In this document: positions 3,400-40,038 of the stretch, in pieces
How positions within the stretch are numbered: position 1 is the stretch's first letter
Layout: each line of letters begins with the position of its first letter
DNA from: a virus
Virus record (IMG/VR): IMGVR_UViG_3300008111_000043
Coordinates: 1 to 40,038 of that record
DNA length: 40,038 nt
Direction: 5' to 3' (one strand)
The notes under the pieces: generated by a model
What the model saw: only the letters and a program-made list of their open reading frames with translations
Database searches by the model: none
What the model was told of the DNA's origin: nothing
Position numbers and translations under genes: made by a program

Positions 3400-3401
3400 A
3401 T

Positions 3402-3686
3402 TTATATCATTGTTTGTTCTAAAATACTTTGTGGATTCATTGGTATTCTCAAAATAGTACCATCTTTAAATCCAATTGGTGCACTATGAATATTATTCGC
3501 CGCGGCTATTATCCACCACAAATTCGAGTCTTTATAAAACTGATATGCTAAAGTATCCAATCTATCACCCGTTTCAGTAGCAACATACATATCATTAAAT
3601 TGTTCAGGAATATTAGGATATATTTTTGGCAAAAATACCTCTCTTCCATCGATTGTCTTTTTTGTTTTATTGTATCTGTATCTCAT
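3402..3686 (-). CDS. LysM-type baseplate protein, gp53/gpX-like
   Basis: This 94-aa protein carries a LysM-like fold in its second half: ATETGDRLDTLAYQFYKD, then the SNLWWIIAAANNI helix, then the GTILRIP strand. The same signature (G-D-x-L-x-x-L-A-x-x-x-Y, L-W-W-x-I-A-x-x-N, L-R-I-P) is found in T4 baseplate wedge gp53 and in P2 gpX and Mu-type tail proteins. There it clamps baseplate wedges or tube-cap proteins. It is not expected to bind cell wall. The placement directly before the hub gene copies the X-D order of P2-like tails. The start ATG at 3686 has no clear Shine-Dalgarno sequence. It lies 24 bases after the stop of the 469-aa gene. Confidence 0.75.
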   Translation of the reverse strand: MRYRYNKTKKTIDGREVFLPKIYPNIPEQFNDMYVATETGDRLDTLAYQFYKDSNLWWIIAAANNIHSAPIGFKDGTILRIPMNPQSILEQTMI

Positions 3687-3710
3687 ACTATTAAATAATT
3701 ATTTTAATTA

Positions 3711-5120: not shown

Positions 5121-5132
5121 TTTTATTTTTTA

Positions 5133-7007: not shown

Positions 7008-7008
7008 A

Positions 7009-14674: not shown

Positions 14675-15009
14675 TTATCCTTTATTATTAAGTATTAGTT
14701 TGTTTACAATTTCTTTCAATTCTTCAATTTCTTTTTGTTGAGTTTTGATAATTTCGTTTTGTTCTTTAATTGCTTCAATAAACAAACCTGCAAAGTTACC
14801 ATATGCAACCCCATATTCATCAACATCTTCCGCATAAGTTACTACTTCAGGTAATACCTCATCAACTTCCTGTGCAATTACACCAATGTTTCTTTTTTTG
14901 GTTTCATCATCAATTCTGTTATACCAAACACCTCTTAATCTTAATAATTTATCCAAAGGATTGTCAACAGTTTCAATGTTTTCTTTTTTTCTTCTATCAG
15001 AATATGCAA
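14675..15009 (-). other. S74 self-cleaving chaperone domain of the 3,217-aa fibre
   Basis: The S-D-x-R-x-K-x-x-I box starts the domain (Ser codon near 15003). In the family the Ser and a nearby Lys form the autoproteolysis site. The IGVIAQEVDEVLPEVV core and the final helical EQNEIIKTQQKEIEELKEIV are all present, so the domain looks complete and active. Confidence 0.9.
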
Positions 15010-24000: not shown

Positions 24001-24328
24001 GCGATATATTTGCTGTTGCTGAACCAGATTTTAACTGATTCAAATCTCCTAAAGCTTCCGCTGATAGATTAAATAAACCACTACCATCACCTCTAAAAAG
24101 TGAAGATGTTACGGAACCACTAATTTGGACATTACCTCTTAATTCAAGAGGAGCACCATTATTGGTTACACCAATTACGTTTGTTTGAACACCGGAAGCA
24201 GAAAAAGGACCAACAACACTCACCGATGCCGATGAAAAGTTGGCAATTCTACTACCACTTACAAACAAAGAAACCAAGCTTGCGCTTAGTTGATTTAAAC
24301 CATTTGCTGTACTACCCAAATTCGTCAT
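14675..24328 (-). CDS. Giant tail fibre (3,217 aa) with Gly-X-Y stalk and S74 chaperone end
   Basis: Modules in order: residues 1-228 are beta-rich Ser/Gly repeats, including one SGSATANISPNRGLVVNVP unit and SSGSNKFGD near 170. Residues about 225-640 form a Gly-X-Y stalk of Gly, Ser and Thr with almost no proline. About 655-760 is a conserved post-stalk module (NGVITLNGTAPNG, FDGTTLAVTGN). About 763-870 holds four 27-aa tandem units (VDTGQGANELYAMNQNVRTT). From there to about 3,080 come 12 copies of a Y-D-x-(D/N)-(D/N)-T-G-Y-Y-x-(D/N)-P-N-G-T-S motif separated by Trp/Tyr/Gly-rich receptor-type domains. The end (about 3,105-3,217) is an S74 intramolecular chaperone: SDRRKKENI, LRGVWYNRID, NIGVIAQEVDEVLPEVV and a C-terminal coiled coil. 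The chaperone is known to trim itself off after trimer folding. The gene starts at ATG 24328, 12 bases after the 110-aa gene. Confidence 0.93.
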   Translation of the reverse strand: MTNLGSTANGLNQLSASLVSLFVSGSRIANFSSASVSVVGPFSASGVQTNVIGVTNNGAPLELRGNVQISGSVTSSLFRGDGSGLFNLSAEALGDLNQLKSGSATANISPNRGLVVNVPTSISGGLSVNGNSNITGSLTITSNLNVSGRITTTEISTVLISSSVIFSSGSNKFGDNVSDNHQFTGSVGISGSIFVTGDTIPTDNSTNEVLVLNTTTGRISRRFAAASSGTSGTGGTSGTSGSSGSSGSSGSSGSSGSGGTSGTSGSSGSSGSSGTSGTSGSSGSSGSGGTSGTSGSSGSSGSSGSSGSGGTSGTSGSGGTSGTSGSGGSSGSSGSSGSSGSSGSSGTSGSAGTAGTSGSGGSSGTAGQSGSSGSSGSSGSGGTSGTTGTAGTGGTSGLTGVGGTAGTSGSSGSSGTSGSSGSSGTSGSGGSSGLTGGGGASGSSGTSGSSGSSGSSGSSGSGGSSGTSASAGTGGTAGTAGTSGTSGSSGSSGTSGSGGSSGTSSSAGTAGTAGTSGSSGSSGISGSSGSSGSSGTSGSSGSSGSSGSSGQAGSSGSSGSSGSSGSGGTSGTTGTSGSSGSAGTSGTRGTSGSGGSSGSSGSGGTSGTSGSSGSGGTSGTSGSGGTSGTTGTAGSGGTSGLLALTGNTDNGVITLNGTAPNGTVEANLRFDGTTLAVTGNATISGDLTVSGTTTYINTTTLNVGDNIITLNADIGASTTPTENAGIEVKRGNAATKTFYWEEANDRWYAEDGLYVGGNVVLSGTVDTGQGATEVYLMNQNVRTTDAVTFATVDTGQGANELYAMNQNVRTTDAVTFATVDTGQGANELYAMNQNVRTTDAVTFATVDTGQGANELYAMNQNVRTTDTVRFGKVEIDGASNYIDTNTGYFSITSAGNEITLGGTTGNMYINYRAALGSTPTGYIWNAGSSTSFATHTMGRIDADSLYDRNDTGYYVDPASTSRQNVIRGTQIATGYHSLTSGYYAGGATPSTGYLITTNIDYGVFNMPIVIIEGYAYGNGAPIHLQIVWYAYSPDPSGWTSVSYINKGGWDPGTVSIGRNGSGKVCIHLSSNIYYGRFNVRGIYDQGHSYLENWSITEASTSGLSLIRTVGRATMQTDISGTAASETLATVTNRGNISTGDIYTPNASSYFRARYTAGSNNYHGSFNWYHLQLGNNGDNYIIAGRTATGGRLRFYVNNTSDFTSINGTEGMRLDSDGRLYSYVDTRSPLFYDQDNTGYYLNPNGTSNLLYITMPHRGNGTENILVNDGGSENWNAINIRGGANNHMGIGYHGTSRGVFGRDGFSIHFDETDSFRLHTNGWDTEFEVTGDGRAWLKDRLGINTTDFSYTSSDNSAAVGSNPTANKLFINGSIQLIGNNDAIVFGRGTSSFLKDEELAFGWGGGWFMQDSTWIRSRGSKNVYVDAYIRAQGSFRVGSEYSIWGTYGTYSAYISRLAYISLDWDAAYDSYSNHGLASTDLNGNFSDSVSLNSFNDIILRLDSNNNNTNSYVRFMDNSAGNGQFAYIGRENGSSIMELYGDIYANRFLDRNDSTYFLNPASDRDTSINGFTARTVEGTKGTWKYNIPRWAHTSDSNYWVGSMGWGTTDFNSVMTWGSGFFDTWSSPANSPGDASHWTGMQALHYTNAYNSAYGWQLAGGSTDSLWFRRFWPNSGGWFKVAMYDNTHSASRGFYASIYYDNDNTTYRVDPNGTSRLLTLQVDNIIQGGVQYAQRLDNVARTAITVGGNASTFYPVILNIGAGATVQQYGEFVIERGGYDDPGYSGIGFSTMNARFTVKASGWGFGATYENLEYYGRTFNGIANWQQISESSRLVIWLRGATVYYLFNIVGSTSVHFANGSGTSYSETHGSTYTFSPTSTISDKASYERWQGGNIKYTGIIYSDSDVRAPIFSDISDTGYYINANSTSQLNRLQINNGLIAGGIDNGSVILYRASNPFSLGGTDAVLTLSDRSNNDWGLRIDKSAHDYGMYVEVSNGATYGYAVNNGGGWVYRVHGNGYIYAPYWYDINDTGYYVDPNGTSSMVTVYVSDWIYQRSSGGMYWTPYSRGIASPENVGNPYGTVATTNANGRNGWNGYALGSQMTLMHDYNNGGNTMGMHDTSYGWIWRWIRDSYFRVDRGYSEFANSARAPIFYDSDNTGYYINPASFTEIYGGLRMSGGHGDSTIRNRLLASNNGAGTGVVQLQMWCSEPGNTWDWAGFGYNVDNTYHDGSGPYYFSRPNTSFGQAYFRFSTSGHMYVYNTNTSGTRYTNMEFYASNWVYVNNYLEAGNSLRAPIFYDSNDTSYYSNQASTSIYNVIGTNKLRADTNRNYNDGNGWWGHDPYGYGWGLPHGSFRTLEISTSGNFSTEPAMFRLHQWGSGSPEFWKPQGTTLYLRETPIGGNIKHSNWFTRFYVQRYIETDESMRAPIFYDTDNTGYFTNPAGRSRLSEIDYGDGSYYWRSGSWGWRHQTPSGYIEFGPANTGHAHIYTDRSNFYFNVNELYGNGYHVIMHNLWWGNTYFGSGGDMYATIWYDTNDTGYRLDPNGSSRLNFVHTNNLYISAGNMLYSDSGGWQGEYNKLQWHSSHAYWQRLSGGYFIMRRGDGNDRNYFNDSGDIWMAYLGWMSSHLNQNVRTDAGPTFAEVYNNGWFRNNSNGTGLYNQNRGMHWYTNNGYWKSAGGGYGYGGIQFYNNYESDSRGYAGYWDGSGFGMLNSSGNWQIRIEYGNAHMELYRITYMNDARPYITYDRDNTGYYSDPNGTTNMYAITDYTRRAAFMLGRSNTNRRDITGDSNYWTGTQGWGTGYGNWDNAWSGGFNGWDIWGGGTAHPQGGGYVHAQGIVSGQHYSTSDGGAGYGWMMVGAADATANRYWARGKWGGGVSGWREFVMSDSNPGYYLYAYIMYDSNNTGYYCDPQSYSQFSSGEFNNYVRVARIDFIGTGGNSGQGTNAYNIFQEGGGWSYPYPDLRIAYHTGLKLGANAGSYEGTRVYSDYDMSDLCFTLAGSSNYSFKYKWQYTATAGYYSDYNGAHWYPNYASSYGSWRADGSRNGWYGISIGTGNQPHLMFDGSGNGGMYIQDYGRWTFYHSLGNNCTGFNTSSTSSSYGIYVEKGIYATGDVVAYSDRRKKENIETVDNPLDKLLRLRGVWYNRIDDETKKRNIGVIAQEVDEVLPEVVTYAEDVDEYGVAYGNFAGLFIEAIKEQNEIIKTQQKEIEELKEIVNKLILNNKG
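21716..22039 (-). repeat. Four 81-bp tandem repeats inside the S74 fibre
   Basis: Four units of 27 residues follow one another: TVDTGQGANELYAMNQNVRT plus TDAVTFA. The outer copies have diverged (ATEVYLMNQ in the first, TDTVRFG in the last), while the inner two are identical at the protein level. A more distant NQNVRTDAGPTFAEV copy lies much later in the protein. Confidence 0.9.
22409..23655 (-). repeat. Gly-X-Y (Ser/Thr) stalk repeat of the 3,217-aa fibre
   Basis: About 415 residues of Gly-X-Y triplets with X and Y drawn almost only from Ser, Thr, Ala and Gly, such as GSSGTSGSSG and GSGGTSG. Rare breaks include GLTGVGG and GLTGGGG. Gly at every third position suggests a collagen-like triple helix or a flexible trimeric stalk. 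Several Gly-Gly pairs keep the register. Confidence 0.9.
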
Positions 24329-26365: not shown

Positions 26366-29300
26366 TTAACTCATATTTTTTCCTACCACAAATCCATAAT
26401 ATGTTGTACCTCCATTAAATGTAAAGAATGTTAATACATCAGTTCCGGCTGAAGTTAATACAGGTGAAAGTCCTCCAACCCAATCAATACTCACAGGCCA
26501 TGTAATAGAATATGCACCCGCATTAACCATAGTAAATGTAAATCCAAATCCATTAGGTGATGATGGTGGATTACTGAAAGTAATTGTTGCACTTCCATTG
26601 AATTGTCTTCTGAAATTATTTGCAGTTGCAAGGTCCAATGTTACGCTTCCACCAGTTCCTTGGTCTGAATATGTTTCTCTAAACGTTGTACCTATTACAT
26701 AAGTACCAGCAGAAACAAACGTAGTTGCTGCTACTGATGTTGTTGTTGTTACATTACCAGTTACGCTTAATGTACTTCCATCAAATGTAATATTACTTTC
26801 AACTACACCCCCAGCTGGCACATTTTGCCAAGTAATTACGCCATTTTCAGTAGTACCAGATACATTCATAAATCCAGATGAACCGGATGTACCATCTGTG
26901 CCACTTATTCCATTTGAGCCAGTTGTGCCACTCGTACCGTTTGAACCAGTAAGTCCCGATGAACCGTTTGAACCAGATGTACCACTACTTCCAAAGAAAG
27001 TACCATCAAATCCAGATGTACCCGCAGAACCGTTAGTACCCAATCCACTTGTACCAGATGTACCTGCTCCCGATGTTCCACTAGAACCATTTGTACCAGA
27101 TGTACCAGATGAACCAAATAATGTTCCGTCTTGTCCAGATGTACCAGATGAACCATTAGTACCTAATCCTGATGTACCGGAACTACCTGCTCCAGATGTA
27201 CCAGAACTACCTGCAGTACCCGAACTACCAAAGAATGTACCATCAAATCCGGATGTACCCGCAGTACCGTTTGTACCAGTTATGCCACTCGTACCAGATG
27301 AACCAGCACCCGATGTACCAGAACTACCTGCAGTACCCGAACTACCAAAGAATGTACCATTCAATCCGGATGAACCAGATGTGCCATTCGTGCCACTCAT
27401 TCCGCTTGAACCAGAAGTACCCGTTGTGCCACTACTTCCAGAAGTTCCAGAAGAACCAAAGAATGTACCATTTAATCCAGAAGAACCAGATGAACCCGAA
27501 CTACCCGATGTGCCATTCGTTCCAGTTGAGCCCGAACTACCCGAACTACCTGCGGTTCCAGATGAACCAAAGAACGTACCATTTAATCCAGATGAACCGG
27601 AAGTACCCGTTGTACCACTACTTCCAGAGCTGCCATCAGTTCCCGTTGTGCCACTCGTACCAGATGTACCTACTGCAGAAGTTCCAGATGTACCATCAGT
27701 ACCTAATCCAGATGTACCCGCGGTACCAGTACTACCAGATGTGCCACTCGTACCAGAGCTTCCAGAAGTTCCAGATGTACCATGTGAACCAAAGAATGTT
27801 CCATCAAATCCACTTGTACCAGCGGAACCAGTTGAACCAGAAGTGCCTGCCGAACCAGAAGAACCAGTTGAACCAGATGTACCGGTTGTACCAGATGAAC
27901 CAAAGAATGTACCATCTTGTCCCGATGTACCACCACTTCCGGATGTGCCACTACTTCCTGATGTGCCAGATGAACCTGCCGAGCCGGCTGAACCAGTTGA
28001 ACCAGAAGTTCCCGAACTACCAGATGAACCAGATGTACCAGATGTTCCTTCTGCAGATGTACCCGAACTGCCCGCAGTGCCGGATGAACCTGCACTACCA
28101 GTTGACCCTGCAGTACCGGTTGAACCATCGGTACCAGAGCTTCCTGATGTGCCAGAAGTACCAAAGAATGTACCATTTAATCCAGATGAACCCGAACTTC
28201 CGCTACTTCCAGATGTACCAGATGTACCAGATGTGCCATTTGAACCCGATGTACCCGATGAGCCGAAGAATGTTCCATTTAATCCTGAAGAACCAGTACT
28301 TCCAGATGTGCCACTGCTTCCAGATGAGCCAGATGAACCAGCACTTCCAGAACTTCCAGATGAACCACTACTTCCTTGCGTACCAGAACTTCCTGATGTA
28401 CCTTCTGAACCAGTTGTACCCGAACTTCCCGATGTGCCACTCGAACCTGCAGTACCAGTTGAGCCATCAGTTCCAGATGTGCCATCTTGTCCCGATGTGC
28501 CATCTTGTCCCGATGTACCAGAACTTCCACTGCTTCCAGAGCTACCAGATGAACCACTACTTCCTGAACTTCCTGATGTACCATCTTGTCCGGAACTTCC
28601 ACTACTTCCAGAACTTCCAGATGTACCTTCTGAACCAGTTGTGCCTGATGTGCCAGAGCTTCCCGATGTACCTGCAGAACCAGTCGAGCCATCAGTTCCA
28701 GATGTACCAGAACTTCCACTACTTCCTGAACTTCCCGATGAACCAGATGAACCTGTTGTACCACTACTGCCAGATGAACCACTCGTGCCGCTACTTCCTG
28801 AACTTCCAGATGAACCCGAACTACCTGATGTACCATCAGAACCAGTTGTACCAGATGAACCACTACTTCCCGAACTTCCCGATGAACCAGATGAACCAGA
28901 ACTTCCACTACTTCCAGATGAACCAGAAGTACCCGCTGACCCGGTTGTGCCACTAGTTCCAGAAGTTCCTGATGTACCAGAACTTCCTGATGTACCATCT
29001 TCTCCAGATGTACCAGATGAACCAGAACTTCCAGATGAACCATCTATACCAGAAGTACCATCGGAACCAGTTGAACCGGATGTGCCACTACTACCAGAAC
29101 TACCCGAAGTACCTGCAGAACCACCTGTGCCTCCGGTTCCAGAACTTCCACTTGTACCAGATGAACCACCACTACCAGTTGAACCAGATGTGCCACTAGT
29201 GCCACTCGTACCAGATGAACCTGCAGAGCCACCACTACCCGCACTACCAGATGTACCGGATGTGCCTCCACTTCCAGAAGAACCAGATGAACCGGAACTT

Positions 29301-32300
29301 CCTGATGTGCCACTCGTGCCAGATGTGCCACTCGTACCAGATGAACCTCCAGTTCCAGTTGAACCAGATGTGCCACTCGTACCAGATGTACCACCACTTC
29401 CAGATGAACCAGAAGAACCCGAGCTTCCAGATGAACCACTCGTGCCAGAACTTCCAGATGTTCCAGATGTACCAGAACTTCCTGATGTGCCGCTACTTCC
29501 AGATGTGCCATCTGACCCGGTTGTTCCAGATGTTCCAGATGTGCCTGCGGTTCCAGAAGTTCCTGATGAACCACTACTTCCAGATGTGCCTCCACTTCCA
29601 GATGTGCCACTACTACCAGATGAACCAGATGAACCAGTGGTTCCAGAACTTCCTGATGTGCCACTACTTCCTGATGTACCAGATGAACCAGAGCTTCCTG
29701 ATGTACCAGATGTTCCTGCTGACCCGGTTGTTCCCGAACTTCCTGATGTGCCACTGCTTCCAGATGAACCACTACTTCCTGAACTTCCAGATGAACCAGC
29801 AGTTCCACTACTTCCAGAACTTCCAGATGAACCAGATGAACCAGAACTTCCAGCAGTTCCCGATGTACCAGAACTTCCTGATGTGCCATCTTCTCCGGAT
29901 GTACCACTACTTCCTGCAGTGCCACTGCTTCCAGATGAACCAGATGAACCAGATGTACCAGATGTACCTCCAGAGCCTTCGGTACCAGATGTACCAGAAG
30001 AACCTACAGCCGCTGCTACGTTTCTTCTTTCTAATCTTTTTGTTACACTATTCCAAATTACAACTTCTTCAGATGAACCAGTTGGTAAATTATTTATTTG
30101 TATTGCACCATTTCCAATTATACTACCACTTACACCTATACTTCCACTAATAGTAAGTGATGCATTTATAGTTTGGTCTTTATTAATTTGTAAGAACGAT
30201 GCGGTATCAGTATTTGCCGCATTTAATGCAAATAGAGCAACACTCGCAGTATATGCAAATGAAGCCGTACCTACTAACATAGATGCGGTTTGTGAGTTCA
30301 ATACAAAATTAGATGTATCAACATTTGCCGCATTCGCTGCATAAAGTGCGTAAGACGAAGATATTGCAAATGATGAACTCAATACAGTCATTGAAGATGT
30401 TTGGTCATTTCTTACATATTCAACCAAATTCAATCCACTCAAATTCTCAACATAAGATGCAGTTAGTGCGTATGATGCAGAAACCGCTCTACCAACACTC
30501 ATTGATGCGGTTTGATTATTTCTTATATATTGTGCAGTATCTCCTAAAGATGCCGATAATTGAGATAATGATGCAGAATCAAATCCAGCTACATTATCTG
30601 CAAAAGATGCTTTAAATGCATATGATGCAGATAATACGGTACCGAATACTCTATCACCTTGAATTGTACCTTGTATTAAAGAACCACCACTACCGATTAC
30701 AACATGTCCGGAAGTTAATCCAGCAAATATAATTTGAATTGTATCTTCATCAATTGATTTAATAGTACCAGGTAAAATTTGGTCTTCGGAACCAGTTGCG
30801 TAAACTTGAACAACTGGATATCTGATTCCCAAATTGTGAACGATTGTTAAATCACTTATATTATTAAACGATACCGTTTCAGTTAATGAAGTTTCTGGTT
30901 GTGGAATATAATATCCTTGCGTTTCGTTGTATCTTAAAATATCGTAGTCCGCAGATGCAGTTGGTCCAACTCCTTGGAATGTATATGTTCCTCTAAATGA
31001 ACCAGTAAATAATTGTGCAGATATGGTATTAGATGCACTTATATTATGTGCAACTTTTAAATCATTGCCCACATATACATTACCCCAAATACTAGCTGAT
31101 GTATTAACAACAAATCCATTATCCGGTGAAATTGATGCAGTAAACGAACCACTCTTTAATATTGGAGTTTGAAACGCTAAGTTAGCGATATTAATGTTTG
31201 TTAAACCACTTCCATCTCCAACGAATGCCGAACCACTTTGTAGAACAACATTACCACCACTTATAAATAAACCACCACTTATTTCTGCCGAACCAGAGAA
31301 GATTCTTACTCTAGTATTAATTTCTAAACCTTTATTTGGAGAAATAACAGCTTCTACGGAACCAGATATAATTCTATCTAACTTAAGGTCTTGCAATGCA
31401 TTTGCAGGGATATTAAATAGTCCACCACCATCACCTATGTAAAGTGCCGCTGTTATTGGTACGTTTACATTTAGTTCATCAGGACTTATAATTGCTCTAG
31501 CAGAACCGGATTGAATTCTATCTAATTGAAGATTTTGAAGTGCTGATGCAGGAATGTTAAATAATCCACCACCATCTCCTTGATATAAAGATGCTGATAA
31601 TGCACCACTAATAGCTACCGAACCGGTAAATTGAGAACCAAATGAACCAGATGGAGCTTTAGTAATTACTTCAAATATTCTACCACTTTGTACCGATGCA
31701 GTTGCACTACCACTAGCAATCAATGGTGCCGCCGCCGCTTGTACATTGGTAAGGAATCTACCATCACCAAAGTAGAAATCCGCAGTTACATCATCTTTTA
31801 CTATTAATGAACCGCTAATCTCAACAGAGCCAGTAAATTCAGAACCAATTTGTGAACCAGTTTTTGCAGTAATTACAACAAAACGTTCACCATCCGCTAC
31901 CGATGCAGTTGCACTACCACTTCCAATGAATGGTGCCGCTGCGGCTACTACATTTGTGATATATCTACCATCACCATAGAAGAAGTCTGCGTATATATCA
32001 TCGGTTGCTCTTATACTACCACTAACTTCTATTGAACCGGTAAATTCAGAACCAATTTCCGAACCAGTTTTAGCAGTTGTTACTACTAATCTATCACCAC
32101 TTGCTACCGATGCAGTTGCCGAACCACTTGCTATCAACGGAGATGCCGCTGCTTGTACGTTTGTAATCTGCGAACCATCTCCTATTAAGAAAAATGCTCT
32201 TAATGAACCACTAACATCAACACTTCCTGTAAATTGAGAACCCACTTGCGATTCAGTAAATGGTGTTACAACTCTAAATCCAAAATCAGGTGAAACTGAT

Positions 32301-35300
32301 GCTGTTACTGAACCAGATACAATAAACGAAGATAATAATGCATCTTCAGTAATTGCCGATTTTGGTATGTTTCTTAAATATGTACCTTCCGCGTAAATAA
32401 ATGAACCGGATTCTACAAACAATCCACCACTAATATCATTAACAAATAAACTTCCACTAATTGAAACCGAACCGGTAAATTGTGAAGCAATTTGTGTTGT
32501 AAACACACTTTCAGATACAGATGATGTAAATGGAGTTTGTACTTTAAATCCAAAATCAGGAGATACCGATGCGGTTACAGAACCCGATTTAATTTCAGTA
32601 GAAACTAATGCATCTTCCGTAAGTGCAGATTTTGGTATGTTTCTTAAATAAGTACCTTCTGAATATATGAAAGATGATGAATCTATATAAATACTTCCGC
32701 TAAATCCAGAACCACTTTGGAATGATTCTACAATAAATCCTCTATCTGGAGAAACCGATGCTGTTACACTTGCACTTGCAATTCTAAACGCATCACCAGT
32801 TAAGTTTGAGAAAGGAATATCAAACAATCCCTTACCACTACCACTAAACATAGATGCGGTTATATTACCTTCTACTTTAGTTTCACCAATAAATTTAATT
32901 TCTGCCGGTATTTCCGTGTAGTCAATTAAATTTATTTGACCAGCCATACTACTATGTAACTGGCAATTATAGTAAAGAACATTAGGAGAACCAGATGGTG
33001 GAGTCCAAAGTATTGTTCCATTATCTTCTCCGTTGTTTGTTATACTTCCACTATATTCCCATATAGTTCCGGTAGAATTAACGTATTTAATCCAAAATGG
33101 ATGTCCAGATGCATTTACATTAAATGTATATTGTAATCCTCTTTGTAATGTTATTGTTTGGTTTGAACCAGATATAGAAGCATTACTTATTATATATGCA
33201 TTTGAACCATCGTTTGTTACATTAACAATTGTATCAATTAAATAATCAGGTGTAGGTCTTCCAGATGATGATACTATAAAACTTCCATCAAATCTAGAAT
33301 GAACATTTACTTCAAATCCTTCAGTTGGTGATACCGATGCGGTTGCTGAACCACTAAATATTTTTGTTGAATCAATTGCTAAATTAGCTAATGTTATGTT
33401 TGATAGATATCTACCATCTCCAACAAAGAAAGAACCAGACGATACCGTTGCATCACCTTGTACATTAATATCTCCCAATACATTTCCGCTACCACTAATC
33501 GTTAAGTCATTTGTTGCAAACAAACTTCCACTAATTCTTATACTACCAGTAATTTGAGAACCACTTTCCAGAGATTCTACTCTAAATCCAAATCTAGGTG
33601 ATACCGAAGCTGTTATAGAACCTGATGCTATGTATGTTGATTCTAATGCGTCCGGTGTTAAAGCGGTTCTTGGAATATTAAACAATCCTTCACCAGAACC
33701 AGAATAGAAAGAACCAGATGCTAAAAATATACTACCACTAACTCTCAAACTTCCGGTAAATTGTGAACCACTTCTTAATGATTCTACAACAAATCCTTTA
33801 TCAGGAAAAACCGATGCCGTTACACTACCAGTTGCAATTCTAGTTAATTCTTGTGATAATGCCGAAAAAGGTATGTCTGTCAACCCAGCACCACTACCAC
33901 TAAATACTGATGCAGAAACTCCAGATTCAAATCTAGAAACTCCTTTAGATAATAAAGAACTACTAATAATTGCAGAACCCGTTACTACTAAATTTGCTTT
34001 TATATCAGTAGAACCGGTTACAACTAAAAATCCATTAATTGTAGTTGGTACATTAACTAATAATCCCTTGTTAGGTGAAATAGAAGCAGTTGCCGAACCA
34101 GATGATATTAATGATATATCTAAATCGGATATCGCAGAACGTGGAATTTCAAATAATCCTTTACCACTTCCAGAATAAAAAGAACCAGATGCTAAAAATA
34201 TGCTTCCACTTACATTTAAACTTCCTGTAAATTGTGAACCACTATCATACGAAACAACTCTAAATCCAAATTGAGGTGATACGGATGCAGTTACACTACC
34301 ACTTACGATTCTATCAATTAAAAACGCATCTTCAGTTAAAGCGGTTCTTGGAATATCAAATAATCCTCTACCACTTCCAGAATAGAAAGAACCAGATGCT
34401 AAAAATATACTACCACTAATTCTTAAACTTCCACTAAATTGAGAACCACTTGCTTGAGATTTTACAACAAATCCATCAATAGATGAAACCGATGCCGTTA
34501 CTGGTCCATCTAAAATTCTATTTGGTTGAGGTAACGGAAGATTTACTAATCTACTACCATCCCCTTGAAATGAACCACTAAAATCACTTCCAATAAAGTT
34601 AATTGCAGTTACGGAACCAGTTACATTAATACTACCAGTGAATTGTGAACCACTATTTTGTGATTGTACAACAAATCCTCTATCTGGACTTACCGATGCA
34701 GTAATGGAACCAGATGCCAATCTTGTTGCAGATGGTAAATTAAATAAATTAGAACCATCTCCATCAAAAGTTCCTCTAAATGAACCACTAAATGATGCAC
34801 TTATTTCTCTAGCTTCTATTCTATCTTTTACAAATAAACTACCCGTTACAGTAGTATCTCCAATAAATTTAATTTCCGCAGGTCTTACTATTTTATCAAC
34901 AATATTAATTCTACCACCCATTGCGGAATGTAATTGGCAGTTATAGTAAAGAGTATCAGGAGCACCGGCCGATGGAATGAATGTTATAACACCCACATCA
35001 TCTCCATTATTAGTTACACCGGTATTATATGCGTTTGTAGTACCAGATGATTGTACGGTTTTGATATAGAATGGATGTCCCGCCGCATTTAAGTTGAATG
35101 TATATAGAACTCCTCTAGCTAATGTTAATGTTGGATTAGAACCCGTTACCGCATTACTAAAAATATATGCGGTAGTTCCATCATTCCTTACATCAAAAAC
35201 AGTATCTAATGATGCAGTAGGTATTTCAAATACAGAAGAAGATACCACCATACTTCCACTAAATTGTGAAAATATATTTACAGTAAATCCTTTATTTGGC

Positions 35301-37246
35301 GTTATAGATGCCGTTACAGAACCACTACCTATTTTTGAAAGGTCTAAATCAGGTATAGCAGATACAGGAATTTCTCTCAATAATTTACCACTACCAGAAA
35401 AAGAACCCGTATATATTTCTATATTTCCACTTACAAAAAGTGAACCTGTAAATTGAGACCCACTATTTGGTGAAAATACTACAAACCCAAAATTTGGTGA
35501 TACCGATGCAGTTACACTACCACTTGCAATTCTCGGAGAAACTACCGATGCAACATTTGTTAATTGAGAACCATCACCAATAAATGAAAATGCTCTAACA
35601 CTTCCACTCACATCAACCGAACCAGTAAATCTAGAACCAAAACTGGAACCACTAAATGGAGTGGTTACAATAAATCCATATTCAGGTGAAACTGATGCTG
35701 TTACTGAACCAGATTTAATTTCAGTAGAAACTAACGCATCTTCAGTCAATGCACTTCTTGGTATGTTTCTTAAATATCTACCATCGGAATAAAGATATGA
35801 AGAAGAATCGATATAAACACTTCCGCTAAAATGCGAACCACTATCAATTGATAATACTTTAAATCCGTAATTGGGTGCAACCGATGCGGTTACTGAACCA
35901 GATTTGATTTCGGTAGTAACCAATGCATCTTCGGTTAATGCACTTCTTGGTATGTTTCTTAATCTAGAACCATCAGCGTATATAAAAGAAGATGAATCAA
36001 TATATGCACTTCCGCTAAAGTGTGAACCACTTGCTATTGATAAAACTCTAAATCCATATTCCGGTGCCACAGATGCCGTTACTGAACCCGATGATATCTC
36101 GGTAGATGTTAATGCATCCGGTGTTAGAGCAGAACGTGGAATATCAAATAATCCTCTACCACTACCACTAAACATAGATGCTGATATATTACCTAATACA
36201 TCTACGCTACCAGTAAATTCAGAACCTCTTAAAATAGATTCTACTTTAAATCCAAATTGAGGACTAACTGATGCGGTTACAGATCCCGTTGCTAATTTTG
36301 TAGCCTGTGGTAGATTGAATATATCTCTACCATCTCCAAAGAATGAACCAGTAAACTGGCTTATAATAGAAGATGCAGTAAGTTGATTGATAACACCCCT
36401 TGCTGCAACAATAGAACCCGATTCAATTACAACAGATCCTGTGTTTAATAATAAACTACCTGTAATTTGTACGCCACCTAAAAACGATGCACTTTGTGCA
36501 TTGAATATAATAAGGTCACCTACAATAGAAGCGGTTACCGAGCCACTTGCTAATAATATAGCTGGAACATTTTTTAAATCTCTACCGTCTCCAAAGAATG
36601 AACCAGTAAACTGACTCAAAATAGAAGATGCTGTAATTTCATTTGCACCAACTCTATCTCTTATTTCAACCGAACCAGTAAATTCTTGCTTATCAATTGA
36701 TTCATCACCAAATTTATTTGAACCAGATGAATATATAATTGAAGATGATATTACATTAACAATTAATTGGTCTGCATATATAGATTTTGAAACATATAAG
36801 TTTCCACCAATTCTTACATCATCGGTTACGGACAAATTACCTTGTATATTGGTATTTGTATTGATATCAAGACCACCACTACTAAATGATGCGGTAAAAG
36901 ATGCAGATGCTAATTTTTGTGCGGTATCGGAAATTGGTAAATTAATTAATTTTGAACCATCTCCACTAAAATCTCCTCTAAAAGAACCAGTTAAATCTGC
37001 ACTTCCGGTAAATGAACCTGTAAATTGTCCACTTACTCTATCTAAATCTAAACTTCTTACAAATCCTCTATTACCCTGGTCATCCGAAACTACGATAGCC
37101 GGAGAGCCTGATAATGAGGCAGAAAAGTTTGGAACACCTAAATTGGGTTCAACTTGAGATAAATCAATAAATTGATACCTGTCCTGTGTTACATTTTTTG
37201 GGGATACAACCCTAACCCTACCCGTTAAAAGATTACTAATTGCCAT
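26366..37246 (-). CDS. Giant tail fibre (3,626 aa) with modular shaft, cupredoxin-like inserts and Gly-X-Y stalk
   Basis: Modules in order: residues 1-110 begin MAISNLLTGRVRVVSPKNVT and lead into Ser/Gly strands. About 110-2,050 contains some 24 variants of SGSVTASVSPDFGFKV with FTGSVDVSGS and GDG-x-x-L-x-N-I-P parts. Two cupredoxin-like domains sit at about 682-785 and 1,340-1,443. About 2,100-2,160 is a beta domain (VHNLGIRYPVVQVYATGS, GLTSGHVVIGSGG). About 2,190-2,360 holds four R-N-x-Q-T-A-S-M / ASYALTASY units. About 2,415-3,458 is a Gly-X-Y stalk. The end (about 3,459-3,626) carries NGVITWQNVPAGG, FDGSTLSVTGN and a small beta domain with AYSITWPVSIDWVGG and TTYYGFVVGKNMS. There is no S74 chaperone, unlike the other giant. 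A GGAAAG ribosome binding site precedes ATG 37246. Expected to be a trimeric long fibre; which end attaches to the tail is unknown. Confidence 0.92.
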   Translation of the reverse strand: MAISNLLTGRVRVVSPKNVTQDRYQFIDLSQVEPNLGVPNFSASLSGSPAIVVSDDQGNRGFVRSLDLDRVSGQFTGSFTGSADLTGSFRGDFSGDGSKLINLPISDTAQKLASASFTASFSSGGLDINTNTNIQGNLSVTDDVRIGGNLYVSKSIYADQLIVNVISSSIIYSSGSNKFGDESIDKQEFTGSVEIRDRVGANEITASSILSQFTGSFFGDGRDLKNVPAILLASGSVTASIVGDLIIFNAQSASFLGGVQITGSLLLNTGSVVIESGSIVAARGVINQLTASSIISQFTGSFFGDGRDIFNLPQATKLATGSVTASVSPQFGFKVESILRGSEFTGSVDVLGNISASMFSGSGRGLFDIPRSALTPDALTSTEISSGSVTASVAPEYGFRVLSIASGSHFSGSAYIDSSSFIYADGSRLRNIPRSALTEDALVTTEIKSGSVTASVAPNYGFKVLSIDSGSHFSGSVYIDSSSYLYSDGRYLRNIPRSALTEDALVSTEIKSGSVTASVSPEYGFIVTTPFSGSSFGSRFTGSVDVSGSVRAFSFIGDGSQLTNVASVVSPRIASGSVTASVSPNFGFVVFSPNSGSQFTGSLFVSGNIEIYTGSFSGSGKLLREIPVSAIPDLDLSKIGSGSVTASITPNKGFTVNIFSQFSGSMVVSSSVFEIPTASLDTVFDVRNDGTTAYIFSNAVTGSNPTLTLARGVLYTFNLNAAGHPFYIKTVQSSGTTNAYNTGVTNNGDDVGVITFIPSAGAPDTLYYNCQLHSAMGGRINIVDKIVRPAEIKFIGDTTVTGSLFVKDRIEAREISASFSGSFRGTFDGDGSNLFNLPSATRLASGSITASVSPDRGFVVQSQNSGSQFTGSINVTGSVTAINFIGSDFSGSFQGDGSRLVNLPLPQPNRILDGPVTASVSSIDGFVVKSQASGSQFSGSLRISGSIFLASGSFYSGSGRGLFDIPRTALTEDAFLIDRIVSGSVTASVSPQFGFRVVSYDSGSQFTGSLNVSGSIFLASGSFYSGSGKGLFEIPRSAISDLDISLISSGSATASISPNKGLLVNVPTTINGFLVVTGSTDIKANLVVTGSAIISSSLLSKGVSRFESGVSASVFSGSGAGLTDIPFSALSQELTRIATGSVTASVFPDKGFVVESLRSGSQFTGSLRVSGSIFLASGSFYSGSGEGLFNIPRTALTPDALESTYIASGSITASVSPRFGFRVESLESGSQITGSIRISGSLFATNDLTISGSGNVLGDINVQGDATVSSGSFFVGDGRYLSNITLANLAIDSTKIFSGSATASVSPTEGFEVNVHSRFDGSFIVSSSGRPTPDYLIDTIVNVTNDGSNAYIISNASISGSNQTITLQRGLQYTFNVNASGHPFWIKYVNSTGTIWEYSGSITNNGEDNGTILWTPPSGSPNVLYYNCQLHSSMAGQINLIDYTEIPAEIKFIGETKVEGNITASMFSGSGKGLFDIPFSNLTGDAFRIASASVTASVSPDRGFIVESFQSGSGFSGSIYIDSSSFIYSEGTYLRNIPKSALTEDALVSTEIKSGSVTASVSPDFGFKVQTPFTSSVSESVFTTQIASQFTGSVSISGSLFVNDISGGLFVESGSFIYAEGTYLRNIPKSAITEDALLSSFIVSGSVTASVSPDFGFRVVTPFTESQVGSQFTGSVDVSGSLRAFFLIGDGSQITNVQAAASPLIASGSATASVASGDRLVVTTAKTGSEIGSEFTGSIEVSGSIRATDDIYADFFYGDGRYITNVVAAAAPFIGSGSATASVADGERFVVITAKTGSQIGSEFTGSVEISGSLIVKDDVTADFYFGDGRFLTNVQAAAAPLIASGSATASVQSGRIFEVITKAPSGSFGSQFTGSVAISGALSASLYQGDGGGLFNIPASALQNLQLDRIQSGSARAIISPDELNVNVPITAALYIGDGGGLFNIPANALQDLKLDRIISGSVEAVISPNKGLEINTRVRIFSGSAEISGGLFISGGNVVLQSGSAFVGDGSGLTNINIANLAFQTPILKSGSFTASISPDNGFVVNTSASIWGNVYVGNDLKVAHNISASNTISAQLFTGSFRGTYTFQGVGPTASADYDILRYNETQGYYIPQPETSLTETVSFNNISDLTIVHNLGIRYPVVQVYATGSEDQILPGTIKSIDEDTIQIIFAGLTSGHVVIGSGGSLIQGTIQGDRVFGTVLSASYAFKASFADNVAGFDSASLSQLSASLGDTAQYIRNNQTASMSVGRAVSASYALTASYVENLSGLNLVEYVRNDQTSSMTVLSSSFAISSSYALYAANAANVDTSNFVLNSQTASMLVGTASFAYTASVALFALNAANTDTASFLQINKDQTINASLTISGSIGVSGSIIGNGAIQINNLPTGSSEEVVIWNSVTKRLERRNVAAAVGSSGTSGTEGSGGTSGTSGSSGSSGSSGTAGSSGTSGEDGTSGSSGTSGTAGSSGSSGSSGSSGSSGTAGSSGSSGSSGSSGSSGTSGSSGTTGSAGTSGTSGSSGSSGTSGSSGTSGSSGTTGSSGSSGSSGTSGSGGTSGSSGSSGTSGTAGTSGTSGTTGSDGTSGSSGTSGSSGTSGTSGSSGTSGSSGSSGSSGSSGSGGTSGTSGTSGSTGTGGSSGTSGTSGTSGTSGSSGSSGSSGSGGTSGTSGSAGSGGSAGSSGTSGTSGTSGSTGSGGSSGTSGSSGTGGTGGSAGTSGSSGSSGTSGSTGSDGTSGIDGSSGSSGSSGTSGEDGTSGSSGTSGTSGTSGTTGSAGTSGSSGSSGSSGSSGSSGSSGSSGSSGTTGSDGTSGSSGSSGSSGSSGTSGSSGSSGTTGSSGSSGSSGSSGSSGTSGTDGSTGSAGTSGSSGTSGTTGSEGTSGSSGSSGSSGQDGTSGSSGSSGSSGSSGSSGSSGTSGQDGTSGQDGTSGTDGSTGTAGSSGTSGSSGTTGSEGTSGSSGTQGSSGSSGSSGSAGSSGSSGSSGTSGSTGSSGLNGTFFGSSGTSGSNGTSGTSGTSGSSGSSGSSGLNGTFFGTSGTSGSSGTDGSTGTAGSTGSAGSSGTAGSSGTSAEGTSGTSGSSGSSGTSGSTGSAGSAGSSGTSGSSGTSGSGGTSGQDGTFFGSSGTTGTSGSTGSSGSAGTSGSTGSAGTSGFDGTFFGSHGTSGTSGSSGTSGTSGSTGTAGTSGLGTDGTSGTSAVGTSGTSGTTGTDGSSGSSGTTGTSGSSGLNGTFFGSSGTAGSSGSSGSTGTNGTSGSSGSSGSSGLNGTFFGSSGTSGSSGTTGTSGSSGMSGTNGTSGSSGLNGTFFGSSGTAGSSGTSGAGSSGTSGITGTNGTAGTSGFDGTFFGSSGTAGSSGTSGAGSSGTSGLGTNGSSGTSGQDGTLFGSSGTSGTNGSSGTSGAGTSGTSGLGTNGSAGTSGFDGTFFGSSGTSGSNGSSGLTGSNGTSGTTGSNGISGTDGTSGSSGFMNVSGTTENGVITWQNVPAGGVVESNITFDGSTLSVTGNVTTTTSVAATTFVSAGTYVIGTTFRETYSDQGTGGSVTLDLATANNFRRQFNGSATITFSNPPSSPNGFGFTFTMVNAGAYSITWPVSIDWVGGLSPVLTSAGTDVLTFFTFNGGTTYYGFVVGKNMS
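26873..30006 (-). repeat. Long Gly-X-Y (Ser/Thr) stalk repeat with GTFFG breaks
   Basis: About 1,040 residues of Gly-X-Y, where X and Y are mainly Ser and Thr, with some Ala, Asp, Glu and Gln, and essentially no proline. In the C-terminal part (about 26,985-28,290) ten near-identical breaks of the form G-(L/F/Q)-(N/D)-G-T-F-F-G-S-S-G occur (one has TLF), each inserting a fourth residue between glycines. Other breaks are GAG and GTSAEG. The DNA is less regular than the protein because Ser and Gly codons vary. Confidence 0.92.
32918..33229 (-). other. Cupredoxin-like insert, second copy, in the 3,626-aa fibre
   Basis: Residues about 1,340-1,443. A strand NQTITLQRGLQYTFNVNASG leads to GHPFWIK with His1382. 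After 46 residues comes YYNCQLHSSMAG with Cys1428, His1431 and Met1434. This is a complete set of type-1 copper ligands with Cys-x2-His-x2-Met spacing. It is flanked by the same PAEIKFIGE link as the first copy. Confidence 0.6.
34892..35203 (-). other. Cupredoxin-like insert, first copy, in the 3,626-aa fibre
   Basis: Residues about 682-785. A strand NPTLTLARGVLYTFNLNAAG leads to GHPFYIK with His724. After 46 residues comes YYNCQLHSAMGG with Cys770, His773 and Met776. Strand order and ligands match small blue copper proteins. Metal binding is inferred, not shown. Confidence 0.6.
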
Positions 37247-37265
37247 TCGTACTTTCCAGCTTTGT

Positions 37266-37273
37266 TATAAATA
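37266..37273 (-). promoter_or_regulatory. TATTTATA leader motif before the 3,626-aa fibre
   Basis: The minus strand reads GAATATTTATAACAAAG, 19 bases upstream of the ATG at 37246 and directly after a hairpin with a T-run. A second copy of the octamer (37288-37295) lies within that hairpin. Confidence 0.4.
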
Positions 37274-37276
37274 TTC

Positions 37277-37303
37277 AAAAAATCACCTATAAATATTATA
37301 GGT
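37277..37303 (-). terminator. Terminator-like hairpin after the 305-aa gene
   Basis: On the minus strand ACCTATAA pairs with TTATAGGT around a 3-base loop, followed by GATTTTTT. It lies 13 bases after the stop at 37316. The stem is AU-rich, so its strength is uncertain, but stem plus T-run is clear. Confidence 0.6.
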
Positions 37304-37315
37304 TGACATATATCG

Positions 37316-38233
37316 TTATTCATTCGCAGATTCAAGTAAAGATAGGACTACCGATAGATTTGTTGAGCCGGAAACTATAAAACCATAACCTTCTTCTAAT
37401 ACTAATTTACCAGAAACTACCGGTGAAAGTGAATCCGCAGCCGGTATTGTTACATTTGTAACCAATTTAACCGGTTCTTGTTCAACAAATACAGGGCTTT
37501 CAATAGTTGCTTTGATAACATCTACTAAAGAATTTACTACATATATAGATGCTGATACTTCGTTACTTGTTCCATTATTGAATCCGGATAATATAGATTG
37601 TGTTACCGTGTTTTGGTATATTAATTCAACTTGAGCAGAACCCGTTACAGATTCATTTTTTATAATTTGATTTGATAATACTTTTAAATAATCTAAAGCA
37701 AATATTGATGCAGAATATTCAGTTGAAGCGATTGCGGATACCCCATTTTTATCAAAATACGCTTTTGCCGCTTTATTTGTTCTACTAGTTGTGTTATTTG
37801 CAATATCATATTTTATTGCATCCACATCATCTAATGTATTTTGTTCAAAATATGATGATATAAAGGTAAATGGAGTTTCCGATAAATTATTTTGGTTTTG
37901 AGTATAGGCTGCTATTTCTTTTCTTAAAAATTGTCTATTTGCATTTAATAATAAAGATGCACTAGCAAAACTACCGCTAAAATTTAATAAAGATACAGAA
38001 GAACTTATAAATGAACTACCACTATATATTGTTTCAAATCTTGGCACAGGTAATTCTCTATTAGATGTTACCAATATCGTAACCGGCTGAACTATTAAAT
38101 CATTATTGGTAATTTGCGCTGATAGCACAATTGATGATACTCCGGCCGGGGTTATATAAATTTCATCTTGCTCGCCAGTCAGATTTGTTACTACTGACTG
38201 GAATCGGTTTAACGGTACAAAAACTTCTGCCAT
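37316..38233 (-). CDS. Structural protein (305 aa) of the neck/fibre region
   Basis: It begins MAEVFVPLNRFQSVVTNLTG and then has EDEIYITPAGV-like strands (actual text QDEIYITPAGVSSIVLSAQI). This is a start I associate with small structural proteins of T4-like phages that lie next to large repeat and fibre genes. Residues 90-240 are helical with Ser/Ala-rich parts (LNFSGSFASASLLLNANRQF, AIASTEYSASIFALDYLKVL). The C-terminus is again beta-rich and ends LEEGYGFIVSGSTNLSVVLS, reminiscent of the EYGFIV units in the giant fibre next door, so it may share a trimeric shaft fold or connect to it. It starts at ATG 38233 with a weak AAAGAAA upstream. It is 27 bases after the repeat gene and is closed by a hairpin. 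Confidence 0.72.
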   Translation of the reverse strand: MAEVFVPLNRFQSVVTNLTGEQDEIYITPAGVSSIVLSAQITNNDLIVQPVTILVTSNRELPVPRFETIYSGSSFISSSVSLLNFSGSFASASLLLNANRQFLRKEIAAYTQNQNNLSETPFTFISSYFEQNTLDDVDAIKYDIANNTTSRTNKAAKAYFDKNGVSAIASTEYSASIFALDYLKVLSNQIIKNESVTGSAQVELIYQNTVTQSILSGFNNGTSNEVSASIYVVNSLVDVIKATIESPVFVEQEPVKLVTNVTIPAADSLSPVVSGKLVLEEGYGFIVSGSTNLSVVLSLLESANE

Positions 38234-38260
38234 TTCTTTTTTATTTTTTTATTTTCTTTT

Positions 38261-39676
38261 TTATATTTGTAGTGCCAATGAGAACGGAGTTACCAATGAG
38301 AATAGAGATTTACTAAATGTTCTACCCACAAGAGTACCAGTTGCCTGATTAATACTTAATCCCGTACCAATTCTAAAGTCACCAGTTTCGTTACCAGATG
38401 TAAAGTAAATTCTACCACCACCCAATTCGGTAATTTCAAATGCCGGATTTGCAACACCACTACCACCCTGATTCGGTGGAAGTGCTTTAAACGTAACACC
38501 ACTACCATTATAAGAGTAGTCAATACCAGTTGCCACAATCAATGAACCAAATGATTCTAATGGTGCTCCAGCTGCTATAAACTCTGCTCTTGTTCTTAAA
38601 TATCTATTAGTTTCCAAAGTCTCTAAAAGTTGGTCTCTAGTTACGGCAATTGCGTTACCGTATTGACCATTATAGTAAGATGATGCCGCTGCAATACCTC
38701 TTTCGTTTCCACCATATAATAAATCAGTACAACAAGCATCAACAATCAAACCAGTATCACGAGAACAACTCGCTTCGTTATAAACTAAATAAGGGAATGC
38801 TCCGTTTGTGTATCCGATTGCTCTTTGTCTTAATTCATCTTTAGAACCTCTCAATCTATCAGCCGCTTGTCTTCTCTTTGTAGATGGTGCTAGATAAGTT
38901 AATAAAGTGTTTGAAACAATCTTTTCAGAAAGGCCTCTTGCGAAATCAATACCATCAACAGTTTGGATTTTTTGTCCAGCTTCGCCGTTATCAGTATATG
39001 ATTCTTTAATTGCAACAGATGGAATCTTATAATAATAAGAACCTGCTTCAATACTTCTTTCGTTACCACCATAAACTAAGTCAGTTCTAATCGCGTCTAT
39101 AATAAATCCTAAATCACGAGAACAACTCGTTTCATTATACTTCAATGTACTCCAAGAAGAACTCAAGAATGTTATAGTTTCTTTTTGTATTAATGGTTTA
39201 TTCGATGTTAATAAATTAACAGTTGTTAATAGAGATGCTGATGGTAATATGAAAGTTGGGTTTGTTACAACCTTACTTGCCAATTTACCAGCATATCTTA
39301 CGCCTGTAATTGTTGGGTCTAATTGTGCTGCCTCAGATGGTACACCTTTTACAGTTGCTTTTGATGGGAATAAGAAATAGTATGAACCAGCGGTTACGCT
39401 TCTTTCACTTCCACCATATAATAAATCGGTTGCCGCCGCGTCTATGATATATTTCACATCACGTGAACAACTTGCTTCATTATAATAAACTCCACTCCAA
39501 GAAGAACTAACATAAGCGATAGTTTCAGCTGCTATGAAATTTTTATTCTTTCTCAACAAATCAAATGAGGCAGATACTGCTGATGATGCTGTTACGAATT
39601 GTATATTTTGTGCAACTTTTTGAGCTATTCTACTTGCGTAAATAATACCATCTAAAGTTTGTCCTAATTGCAGTTG
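38261..39676 (-). CDS. Repeat structural protein, 3' part after a frame break
   Basis: Three repeats of about 130 residues share E-x-I-x-(Y/F)-x-S-S-W, then Y-N-E-(A/T)-S-C-S-R-D, I-I-D-A and DLLYGGSERS, AGSYYY, P-S, and a V-x-N-x-x-x end. This family is common near the neck and fibres of T4-like phages (C-x-R-D-(I/V)-G-x-I-(V/I)-D-A and YGGN motifs). The C-terminal 75 residues are a different beta domain (GIDYSYNGSGVTFKALPPNQ, RIYFTSGNETGDFRIGTGLS). The open frame begins right after a TAG at 39677-39679 and has no credible start. The first in-frame alternative start is a TTG at 39559 inside a repeat. I therefore take it as the continuation of the gene to its right (39630-40038), separated by a frameshift. 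Confidence 0.75.
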   Translation of the reverse strand, partial: QLQLGQTLDGIIYASRIAQKVAQNIQFVTASSAVSASFDLLRKNKNFIAAETIAYVSSSWSGVYYNEASCSRDVKYIIDAAATDLLYGGSERSVTAGSYYFLFPSKATVKGVPSEAAQLDPTITGVRYAGKLASKVVTNPTFILPSASLLTTVNLLTSNKPLIQKETITFLSSSWSTLKYNETSCSRDLGFIIDAIRTDLVYGGNERSIEAGSYYYKIPSVAIKESYTDNGEAGQKIQTVDGIDFARGLSEKIVSNTLLTYLAPSTKRRQAADRLRGSKDELRQRAIGYTNGAFPYLVYNEASCSRDTGLIVDACCTDLLYGGNERGIAAASSYYNGQYGNAIAVTRDQLLETLETNRYLRTRAEFIAAGAPLESFGSLIVATGIDYSYNGSGVTFKALPPNQGGSGVANPAFEITELGGGRIYFTSGNETGDFRIGTGLSINQATGTLVGRTFSKSLFSLVTPFSLALQI

Positions 39677-40038
39677 CTACACCATCTAAGATATAACCAA
39701 CATCTCTCTTACACTTCTCTTTGTTATATTCAAATGAACTCCAGCTAGCAGTTAAGTAAGCCATAGTTTCATTTTGTATGAATAATCTATTGTTTCTTAA
39801 TAATTCAACCGATGCTGATACTGATTGAGATGCAGTTACAAATGTTGTGTTTGTAATTACATTCTTAGCCGTACCACCTGCGAAATCAATTGCGTTCAAT
39901 GTTGAATCTAATTGAGAACCAGTAGCTTGTGATGGATATTTGAAATAATATTGTCCAGCAGTTGCACTTCTTTGATTTCCTCCGTAAAGAATATCAGTTG
40001 CTACTGCATCCACTATTAAACCAACATCTCTCTTACAT
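39630..40038 (-). CDS. Repeat structural protein, upstream part, open at the window edge and frameshifted at its end
   Basis: The frame enters from the right edge with CKRDVGLIVDAVATDILYGG and carries one full repeat: QRSATAGQYYFKYPSQATGS, then AIDFAGGTAKNVITNTTF, NRLFIQNETMAYLTASW and CKRDVGYILDGVAT. It then leaves the repeat pattern (AIRTNFRWYYLRK) and stops at 39630. The other frame picks up at QLGQTLDGIIYAS, which aligns with SQLDSTLNAIDFA of the previous repeat. About 27 residues that should lie between (the ILYGGNQRSATAGQYYF and YPSQATGS part) are missing. So this is one gene with a deletion plus frame change, either real or from assembly of repeated DNA. The true start is outside the window. 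Confidence 0.75.
   Translation of the reverse strand, partial: CKRDVGLIVDAVATDILYGGNQRSATAGQYYFKYPSQATGSQLDSTLNAIDFAGGTAKNVITNTTFVTASQSVSASVELLRNNRLFIQNETMAYLTASWSSFEYNKEKCKRDVGYILDGVATAIRTNFRWYYLRK

Follow-up and report, generated by a model that had tools for sequence, protein, structure and literature searches.

Two inserts with a predicted cupredoxin fold and type-1 ligand residues in a giant phage tail fibre, with relatives in cyanophage baseplate proteins

The window analysed here, by which we mean the whole 40,038-nt stretch at positions 1 to 40,038 of record IMGVR_UViG_3300008111_000043, contains a giant tail-fibre gene on the minus strand (26366..37246) that encodes 3,626 aa and matches Pfam Collagen (5.7e-101) and PHROG tail-fibre families. 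From the repeat positions, the N-terminal part of the fibre contains 16 SGS[VAI]TAS repeat motifs and two cupredoxin-like inserts, followed by a long collagen-like region and then a C-terminal tip. Tail sheath and tail tube genes are also present, and their nearest annotated relative is Microcystis phage Mel-JY01 (sheath 47.7%, tube 58.0%), with an uncultured phage and Flavobacterium phages of the immuto group as other near relatives. Based on these two genes and their nearest annotated relatives, we infer that the virus is a contractile-tailed phage. Mel-JY01 itself gave no match to the cupredoxin-like domain.

Elsewhere in the window, another giant protein of 3,217 aa (14675-24328) has collagen-like repeats and a C-terminal Peptidase_S74 chaperone, and the cupredoxin-like family profile found no match in it. 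Four large minus-strand frames at 484-9423 (971, 469, 641 and 804 aa) had no PHROG match at E <=0.001. When positions 37001-40038 were compared with the related record G303 (locus L209, G303:C1:14500-21000), one long frame in G303 corresponded to separate frames in the window, one of 432 aa (38261-39559) and one of 135+ aa (39630-40037), with ~101 bases missing from the window and identical flanking DNA on both sides. The identical flanks indicate that the right end of the window encodes the C-terminal part of a further giant protein, whose break is either a real deletion or a repeat collapsed in assembly.

The two inserts are each ~115 aa long and, like all features that follow, lie on the minus strand, with copy 1 (aa 672-787) at 34886..35233 and copy 2 (aa 1329-1445) at 32912..33262. 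A sequence-only reading of this DNA had assigned each insert a His-Cys-His-Met set, and translation of 26366-37246 shows that every residue position it gave was correct. In copy 1, a GHPF motif starting at residue 723 supplies the first ligand position, His724 (35075..35077), which aligns to the GH-N-V His of an azurin/pseudoazurin profile; Cys770 (34937..34939), His773 (34928..34930) and the axial position Met776 (34919..34921) follow, each placed by both position check and profile alignment. In copy 2, where positions were checked in the translation, GHPF starts at residue 1381, and the corresponding residues are His1382 (33101..33103), Cys1428 (32963..32965), His1431 (32954..32956) and the axial Met1434 (32945..32947). 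The identical His-to-Cys spacing that had been claimed is 46 in both copies, and the motif PAEIKFIG does come after each, at aa 789-796 (34859..34882), where the shaft sequence resumes, and at aa 1447-1454 (32885..32908). The occurrence of two His-46-Cys-x2-His-x2-Met inserts in the 3,626-aa fibre is thus confirmed.

Only 2 Cys residues occur among the 3,626 residues of the fibre, both of them the ligand Cys, along with 11 His and 13 Met. At these residue frequencies, the chance of finding His at -46, His at +3 and Met at +6 around a given Cys is ~3e-8, which counts as a single odds figure and not two because the copies are homologous. Searching the family profile against the 110 stop-to-stop frames of at least 60 aa in the window revealed no third copy. 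It had also been proposed that the whole unit was duplicated with its ligands kept, and this stands as an old event and falls as a recent one, the two copies being 68% identical in DNA over 282 bases. Copy 2 forms a supported four-member group with the downstream copies of three related loci, L004, L010 (82% identical) and L014. The nearest relative of copy 1 is the copy of L004 that lies upstream (73%). Many of the spacings between copies in related fibres are near 627 or 243 aa.

An AlphaFold2 model of copy 1, built on an alignment of 64 of the 77 unique copies obtained from 80 sources, has a mean pLDDT of 95.4, a pTM of 0.88 and eight strands. In the DSSP assignment of this model, His53 (His724 of the fibre) lies between strands 44-49 and 55-58, i.e., strands 4 and 5, Cys99 ends strand 94-99, and His102 and Met105 precede strand 106-112, these being strands 7 and 8. 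A His between strands 4 and 5 and a Cys/His/Met group between strands 7 and 8 is the arrangement of type-1 copper sites. Foldseek returned a best E of 8e-5, and 46 of the 50 rows listed were titled as a cupredoxin or copper enzyme, including rusticyanin, AcoP, plastocyanin, amicyanin, pseudoazurin, auracyanin, nitrite reductase and laccase; the remaining four titles were uninformative (7e1v in two rows, 3cvd and 1m9w). VIA-align gave a best Z of 10.6 with an rmsd of 2.5 A over 95 residues for residues 24-136 of a Hyphomicrobium nitrite reductase (2dv6), followed by rusticyanin and two-domain laccases. Since its 998 chains came from the same Foldseek ranking, this comparison is a second look and no independent search.

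Copy 2 was modelled with ~75 shaft residues before it and 65 after it on 55 alignment rows and has the same eight strands. Ten-residue blocks reach pLDDT 93-98 from model residue 81 to 190, blocks at the domain ends 84-85 and distant shaft blocks 43-76, giving an overall value of 76.2 and a pTM of 0.58. Its PDB matches include rusticyanin, plastocyanin, amicyanin, a CuA domain with an amicyanin loop and a purple cupredoxin. A strand of only two residues lies at either end of the domain, one at 76-77 and the other at 191-192, and we infer from the model that they may pair and so make the domain a side branch of the shaft. The cupredoxin fold is a Greek-key beta sandwich with around eight strands. 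Together, the eight strands of at least three residues in both models and the cupredoxin PDB matches bear out the earlier suggestion that both copies are cupredoxins in predicted fold, with strand order untraced and ligand side-chain distances not in evidence. A PDB sequence search gave nothing credible (best E of 0.16 for copy 1 and 0.41 for the 64-row profile), and the link to cupredoxins therefore rests on the predicted fold and a deeper profile.

This deeper profile contains 169 unique family members, viral and cellular, and was aligned to one of 33 azurin/pseudoazurin-like sequences. The alignment placed H,C,H,M opposite H,C,H,M with a probability of 95.5 and an E of 1.6e-8 (local mode), compared to 0.3 for a reversed template and a maximum of 6.3 (median 0.1) for 100 column shuffles. 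The 33 references were drawn from two sources, genomes in the same phylum as G007 (titled Muricauda, the source of L092) and the genome G001 (titled Acidobacteria, the source of L082); they were found by Pfam PF00127 and then picked by a Cys-His-Met motif filter and BLAST linkage. As a sequence match it is remote, and it was made to references pre-filtered for the Cys-His-Met motif. The 64-row viral profile alone reached a probability of 56.6 in local mode, at the Cys/His/Met end, and 9.3 in global mode, and adding cellular and further viral members raised the value to 95.5. As searched, 24 of the 169 members lack the full pattern; among the 145 that have it, 128 place Cys 46 residues after the first His. 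The type-1 order His...Cys-x(2-5)-His-x(2-4)-Met at the known strand positions occurs in both window copies.

No match to Pfam Copper-bind (PF00127) came up among 5 members searched at E <=10 or among 64 members at E <=0.01, and NCBIfam gave unrelated weak matches only. The most frequent Pfam family was At5g54830-like (PF25489), matching 24 of the 64 aligned members at E <=0.01 with a best value of 1.6e-6. Against its 27-bit cut-off, both window copies fall below (23.2 and 14.3 bits), while a bacterial relative, L184, lies above (27.8). Judged by these profile searches, the domain family is not a recognised copper family.

Compared to the azurin/pseudoazurin/plastocyanin-type cupredoxins of PF00127, the fibre domain shares the common fold and the order and place of the four ligand positions, but it lacks a PF00127 match, and the residue after its first His is Pro, whereas the azurin/pseudoazurin reference profile has Asn. 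Those proteins are also free electron carriers, whereas the fibre domain is built into a phage fibre. His-Pro does occur at the corresponding motif in 18 of 18 motif-filtered multicopper oxidases (23 loci examined); a kinship with multicopper oxidases on this basis found no support in a profile comparison (probability of 0.1). The metal loops differ as well, with C-x2-H-x2-M in the fibre domain and C-x4-H-x3-M in 26 of the 33 references. Amicyanin, one of the Foldseek matches, has the same C-x2-H-x2-M metal loop as the fibre domain, with a His-Cys distance of 39 compared to 46 here, and we know of no methylamine dehydrogenase partner for the fibre domain. Loop grafts written CTPHPFM occur in a PDB title among the Foldseek matches, and an amicyanin-type loop by itself does not make the fibre domain an amicyanin.

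Relatives in cyanophage fibres, which the sequence-only reading had mentioned, proved to be real. A tblastn search with copy 1 matched 341 of 50,697 phage records (E <=1e-3), of which 263 are named Synechococcus, 45 Cyanophage and 25 Prochlorococcus (333 together), leaving 8 others, and many of the matches listed for copy 2 fall on proteins named 'baseplate wedge tail fiber connector' or gp9. In 12 isolate regions hand-chosen from these records for variety, the full HP...C-x2-H-x2-M set was present in all 12. Four of these regions (L193-L196) carry the domain as the C-terminus of gp9, and the N-terminal part of the L193 gp9 matches Pfam T4_gp9_10_N (PF07880, 3.8e-10). PHROG 677 ('baseplate wedge tail fiber protein connector'), the gp9 family of T4-like cyanophages, contains the same domain in its last ~110 positions (E of 8e-23 and 1.7e-19 to profile positions 302-411 and 309-411 of 412); there it sits behind a T4 gp9/10-like N-terminal part, whereas in the window fibre it is inserted twice. 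In the T7-like cyanophages P-SCSP2 and P-GSP1, it lies near the N-terminus of a protein annotated as hypothetical. For another T7-like cyanophage, P-SCSP1u, a term search of the main text of the cryo-EM study finds no cupredoxin or plastocyanin, and copper appears once, for a grid (PMC10575957).

The gene after gp9 in L193-L196 (starting at 1741 or 1744) shows a second, more distant match at E 4e-5 to 1.5e-3 in a search of a small set, with HP ... YY-x-C-x2-H-x2-M present in four of four T4-like cyanophages. PHROG 708, read for L193, identifies this gene as a baseplate wedge subunit.

The distribution of the domain bears on one alternative, in which copper is put to active use, either offered to a copper-uptake or electron-transfer surface of the host or serving as a redox switch in attachment, as a copper counterpart of the proposed iron Trojan-horse phages. 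The 333 of 341 records named for Synechococcus, Prochlorococcus or Cyanophage fit this idea, as does the location of the domain on gp9, the annotated connector of baseplate wedge and tail fibre. It also has a precedent, the nearest we found, in the iron sites of phage fibres, namely those shown for T4 gp37 and those proposed for the alterophage R22Y fibre together with the Trojan-horse proposal (PMC11705849). These likewise place metal in a tail fibre but use HxH pairs, whereas a separate soft-metal site of four residues would be present in each fibre domain here. We are aware of no receptor, no redox partner and no infection that depends on copper, and none turned up in the analysis; we consider active use of copper improbable.

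The domain is not confined to viruses. Cellular relatives were found at 27 genome loci titled as Flavobacteriia, marine alphaproteobacteria and others, and several of the proteins start, as judged by eye, like lipoproteins or secreted proteins. The domain ends a CHRD-domain protein in L085 and a fasciclin-domain protein in L188, and it stands beside starch-binding modules in L080. In the phylum of G007, 12 of 296 sampled genomes had a match.

We counted ligand conservation in 144 unique copies from 144 sources, excluding L001-L003 as duplicates of the window. H,C,H,M is complete in 134 of the 144, or in 92 of 102 copies at 80% identity (viral 74/83, cellular 18/19), and in the cellular relative L106, Asn replaces the first His. 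These counts are inflated because the search patterns contained ligand residues. Divided by seed status, the viral copies are complete in 68/68 seeds and in 38/47 non-seeds (24/33 at 80% identity). The nine incomplete viral copies read QSGM, QSQM, HDLL, HDHM, HSDM, YNNM, HSNM, HSDA and YSSL, so that Cys is lost in 9, the second His in 8, the first His in 4 and Met in 3. A third domain, outside the count, is encoded in a 4,190-aa frame of G303, whose sequence does not differ from the window wherever the two were compared; this domain reads Tyr, Ala, Asn, Met and has lost three of the four. Conservation of the four ligands among homologues, which the sequence-only reading had set as a check of its copper proposal, therefore holds in part: 38 of the 47 non-seed viral copies are complete and loss is mostly concerted, but 9 of 47 are incomplete.

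Such copies are the main support for a second alternative, that the domain is metal-free in the virion and acts as a cupredoxin-fold beta-sandwich for decoration or surface contact, the four residues being relics of an ancestor that bound copper. The domain can still be recognised in the nine copies without Cys and in the third copy of G303, and the bacterial relative that adjoins starch-binding modules is in keeping with such a role. Leftover ligands would be expected to decay singly, however, whereas the observed loss is coupled, and the site is complete in all 12 isolate regions. Cys is also kept here though rare elsewhere in these fibres: among 70 unique related viral open frames of at least 500 aa, many of them truncated where the retrieved DNA stops, the domain holds 118 of 162 Cys, though it accounts for only 15,039 of 123,492 residues, and 58 of the 70 have no Cys outside it. 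On balance, we regard a metal-free domain as unlikely. Each of the nine incomplete copies has a complete copy in its own open frame (9/9, a biased figure, since the loci were chosen by their complete copy), and the persistence of ligand-less copies beside an intact one also speaks against the active use of copper.

The coupling itself is strongest between Cys and the second His, which rank first among 561 pairs of 34 conserved columns (table 93/0/1/8, P 4e-11). The first and second His rank second and the first His and Cys fourth, while the pair in third place (columns 18 and 101, zero-based numbering) includes only one ligand. Met is coupled to Cys (P 5e-4) and to the second His (3e-4) and not clearly to the first His (0.14). 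These Fisher P values ignore relatedness. In a tree of 103 rows built with the ligand columns left out, support is poor for 52 of the 100 inner branches. At least 6 changes of Cys are needed on this tree, and across three independent pairs on supported branches, the second His was concordant in 2.9 on average and never opposite, too few for significance. The top conserved columns are Y97, G77, Y23 and N76 and not the ligand columns. That the ligands are kept or lost as a unit is thus borne out by the coupling, with weak tree support for independence. As far as aligned sequences can tell, a metal site that is retained or abandoned as a whole, within a scaffold useful without metal, would be expected to give this pattern.

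Coupled loss also bears on whether the site might hold another metal such as zinc or whether its Cys might form an inter-chain disulphide of the fibre. A zinc-bound cupredoxin-like protein, 4hcg, is among the PDB matches, and in a trimer, the usual state of tail fibres, the three Cys would sit at the same height. A disulphide, on the other hand, does not account for the joint loss of Cys and the second His, or for the less frequent loss of the first His and Met along with Cys, and this Cys is buried in cupredoxins. We give either possibility very little credence.

Altogether, the cupredoxin reading of the inserts is supported, while copper is unproven, and ligand geometry and function are not shown. 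We think it reasonably likely, without metal data or a view of the site geometry, that the inserts are cupredoxin domains with a complete type-1 ligand set at matching points of the shaft repeats. The domain is probably a captured cupredoxin that serves as a side module of the fibre and is loaded with copper after lysis. In the mechanism that we infer, the domain would branch from the side of the fibre shaft and would be made empty in the host cytoplasm, with metal, most likely copper, taken up after lysis. Once filled, the site would make the domain stiffer and give form to its surface. Uptake at that stage is likely because the cytoplasm, in which phage proteins are synthesised, has little free copper. 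Copper binding by type-1 sites is tight, so trace amounts in the water could suffice. The domain would then act as a decoration or surface-contact module, and copies with a decayed site may keep the fold for a structural role. If the fibres are trimeric, with six per virion and two domains per chain, a particle would carry 36 metal ions.

A broader possibility, which we put forward only tentatively and with more doubt than belief, is that aquatic tailed phages, above all T4-like cyanophages, carry dozens of blue-copper centres on fibres and on baseplates, there in gp9 and, it appears, in the adjacent wedge subunit. Virions would then be organic copper ligands that use copper state or delivery in host attachment, a copper version of the iron Trojan-horse idea. 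We found no description of a phage-tail cupredoxin domain in the open-licence literature, searched by title and start of abstract with preprints not covered. Cupredoxins are a known kind of protein, and within the literature searched, what is new is a phage subfamily in fibres and baseplates with a complete site. The phage-fibre metal sites we met in the literature are iron sites, and a copper site of redox type in the structures with which phages of ocean cyanobacteria attach would be unexpected. These phages may bear copper on those structures, which, if true, would tie virions to the chemistry of copper in water. Even if the domain is metal-free, a C-terminal domain of cyanophage gp9 has been identified that has no such name in the records examined. 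The copper site is directly testable, given the small size of the domain and its occurrence in cyanophages that are in culture.

Among predicted structures in BFVD, the copy 1 model matches A0A481Z6J5, A0A481YVH3 and A0A481YWX9, predicted 'beta-sandwich proteins' of Pithovirus- and Marseillevirus-like viruses. In Synechococcus phage S-BM3 (L202:541-3225), a subtilase (PF00082) protein carries one full cupredoxin-like domain before the subtilase domain and fragments of another cupredoxin-like match after it.
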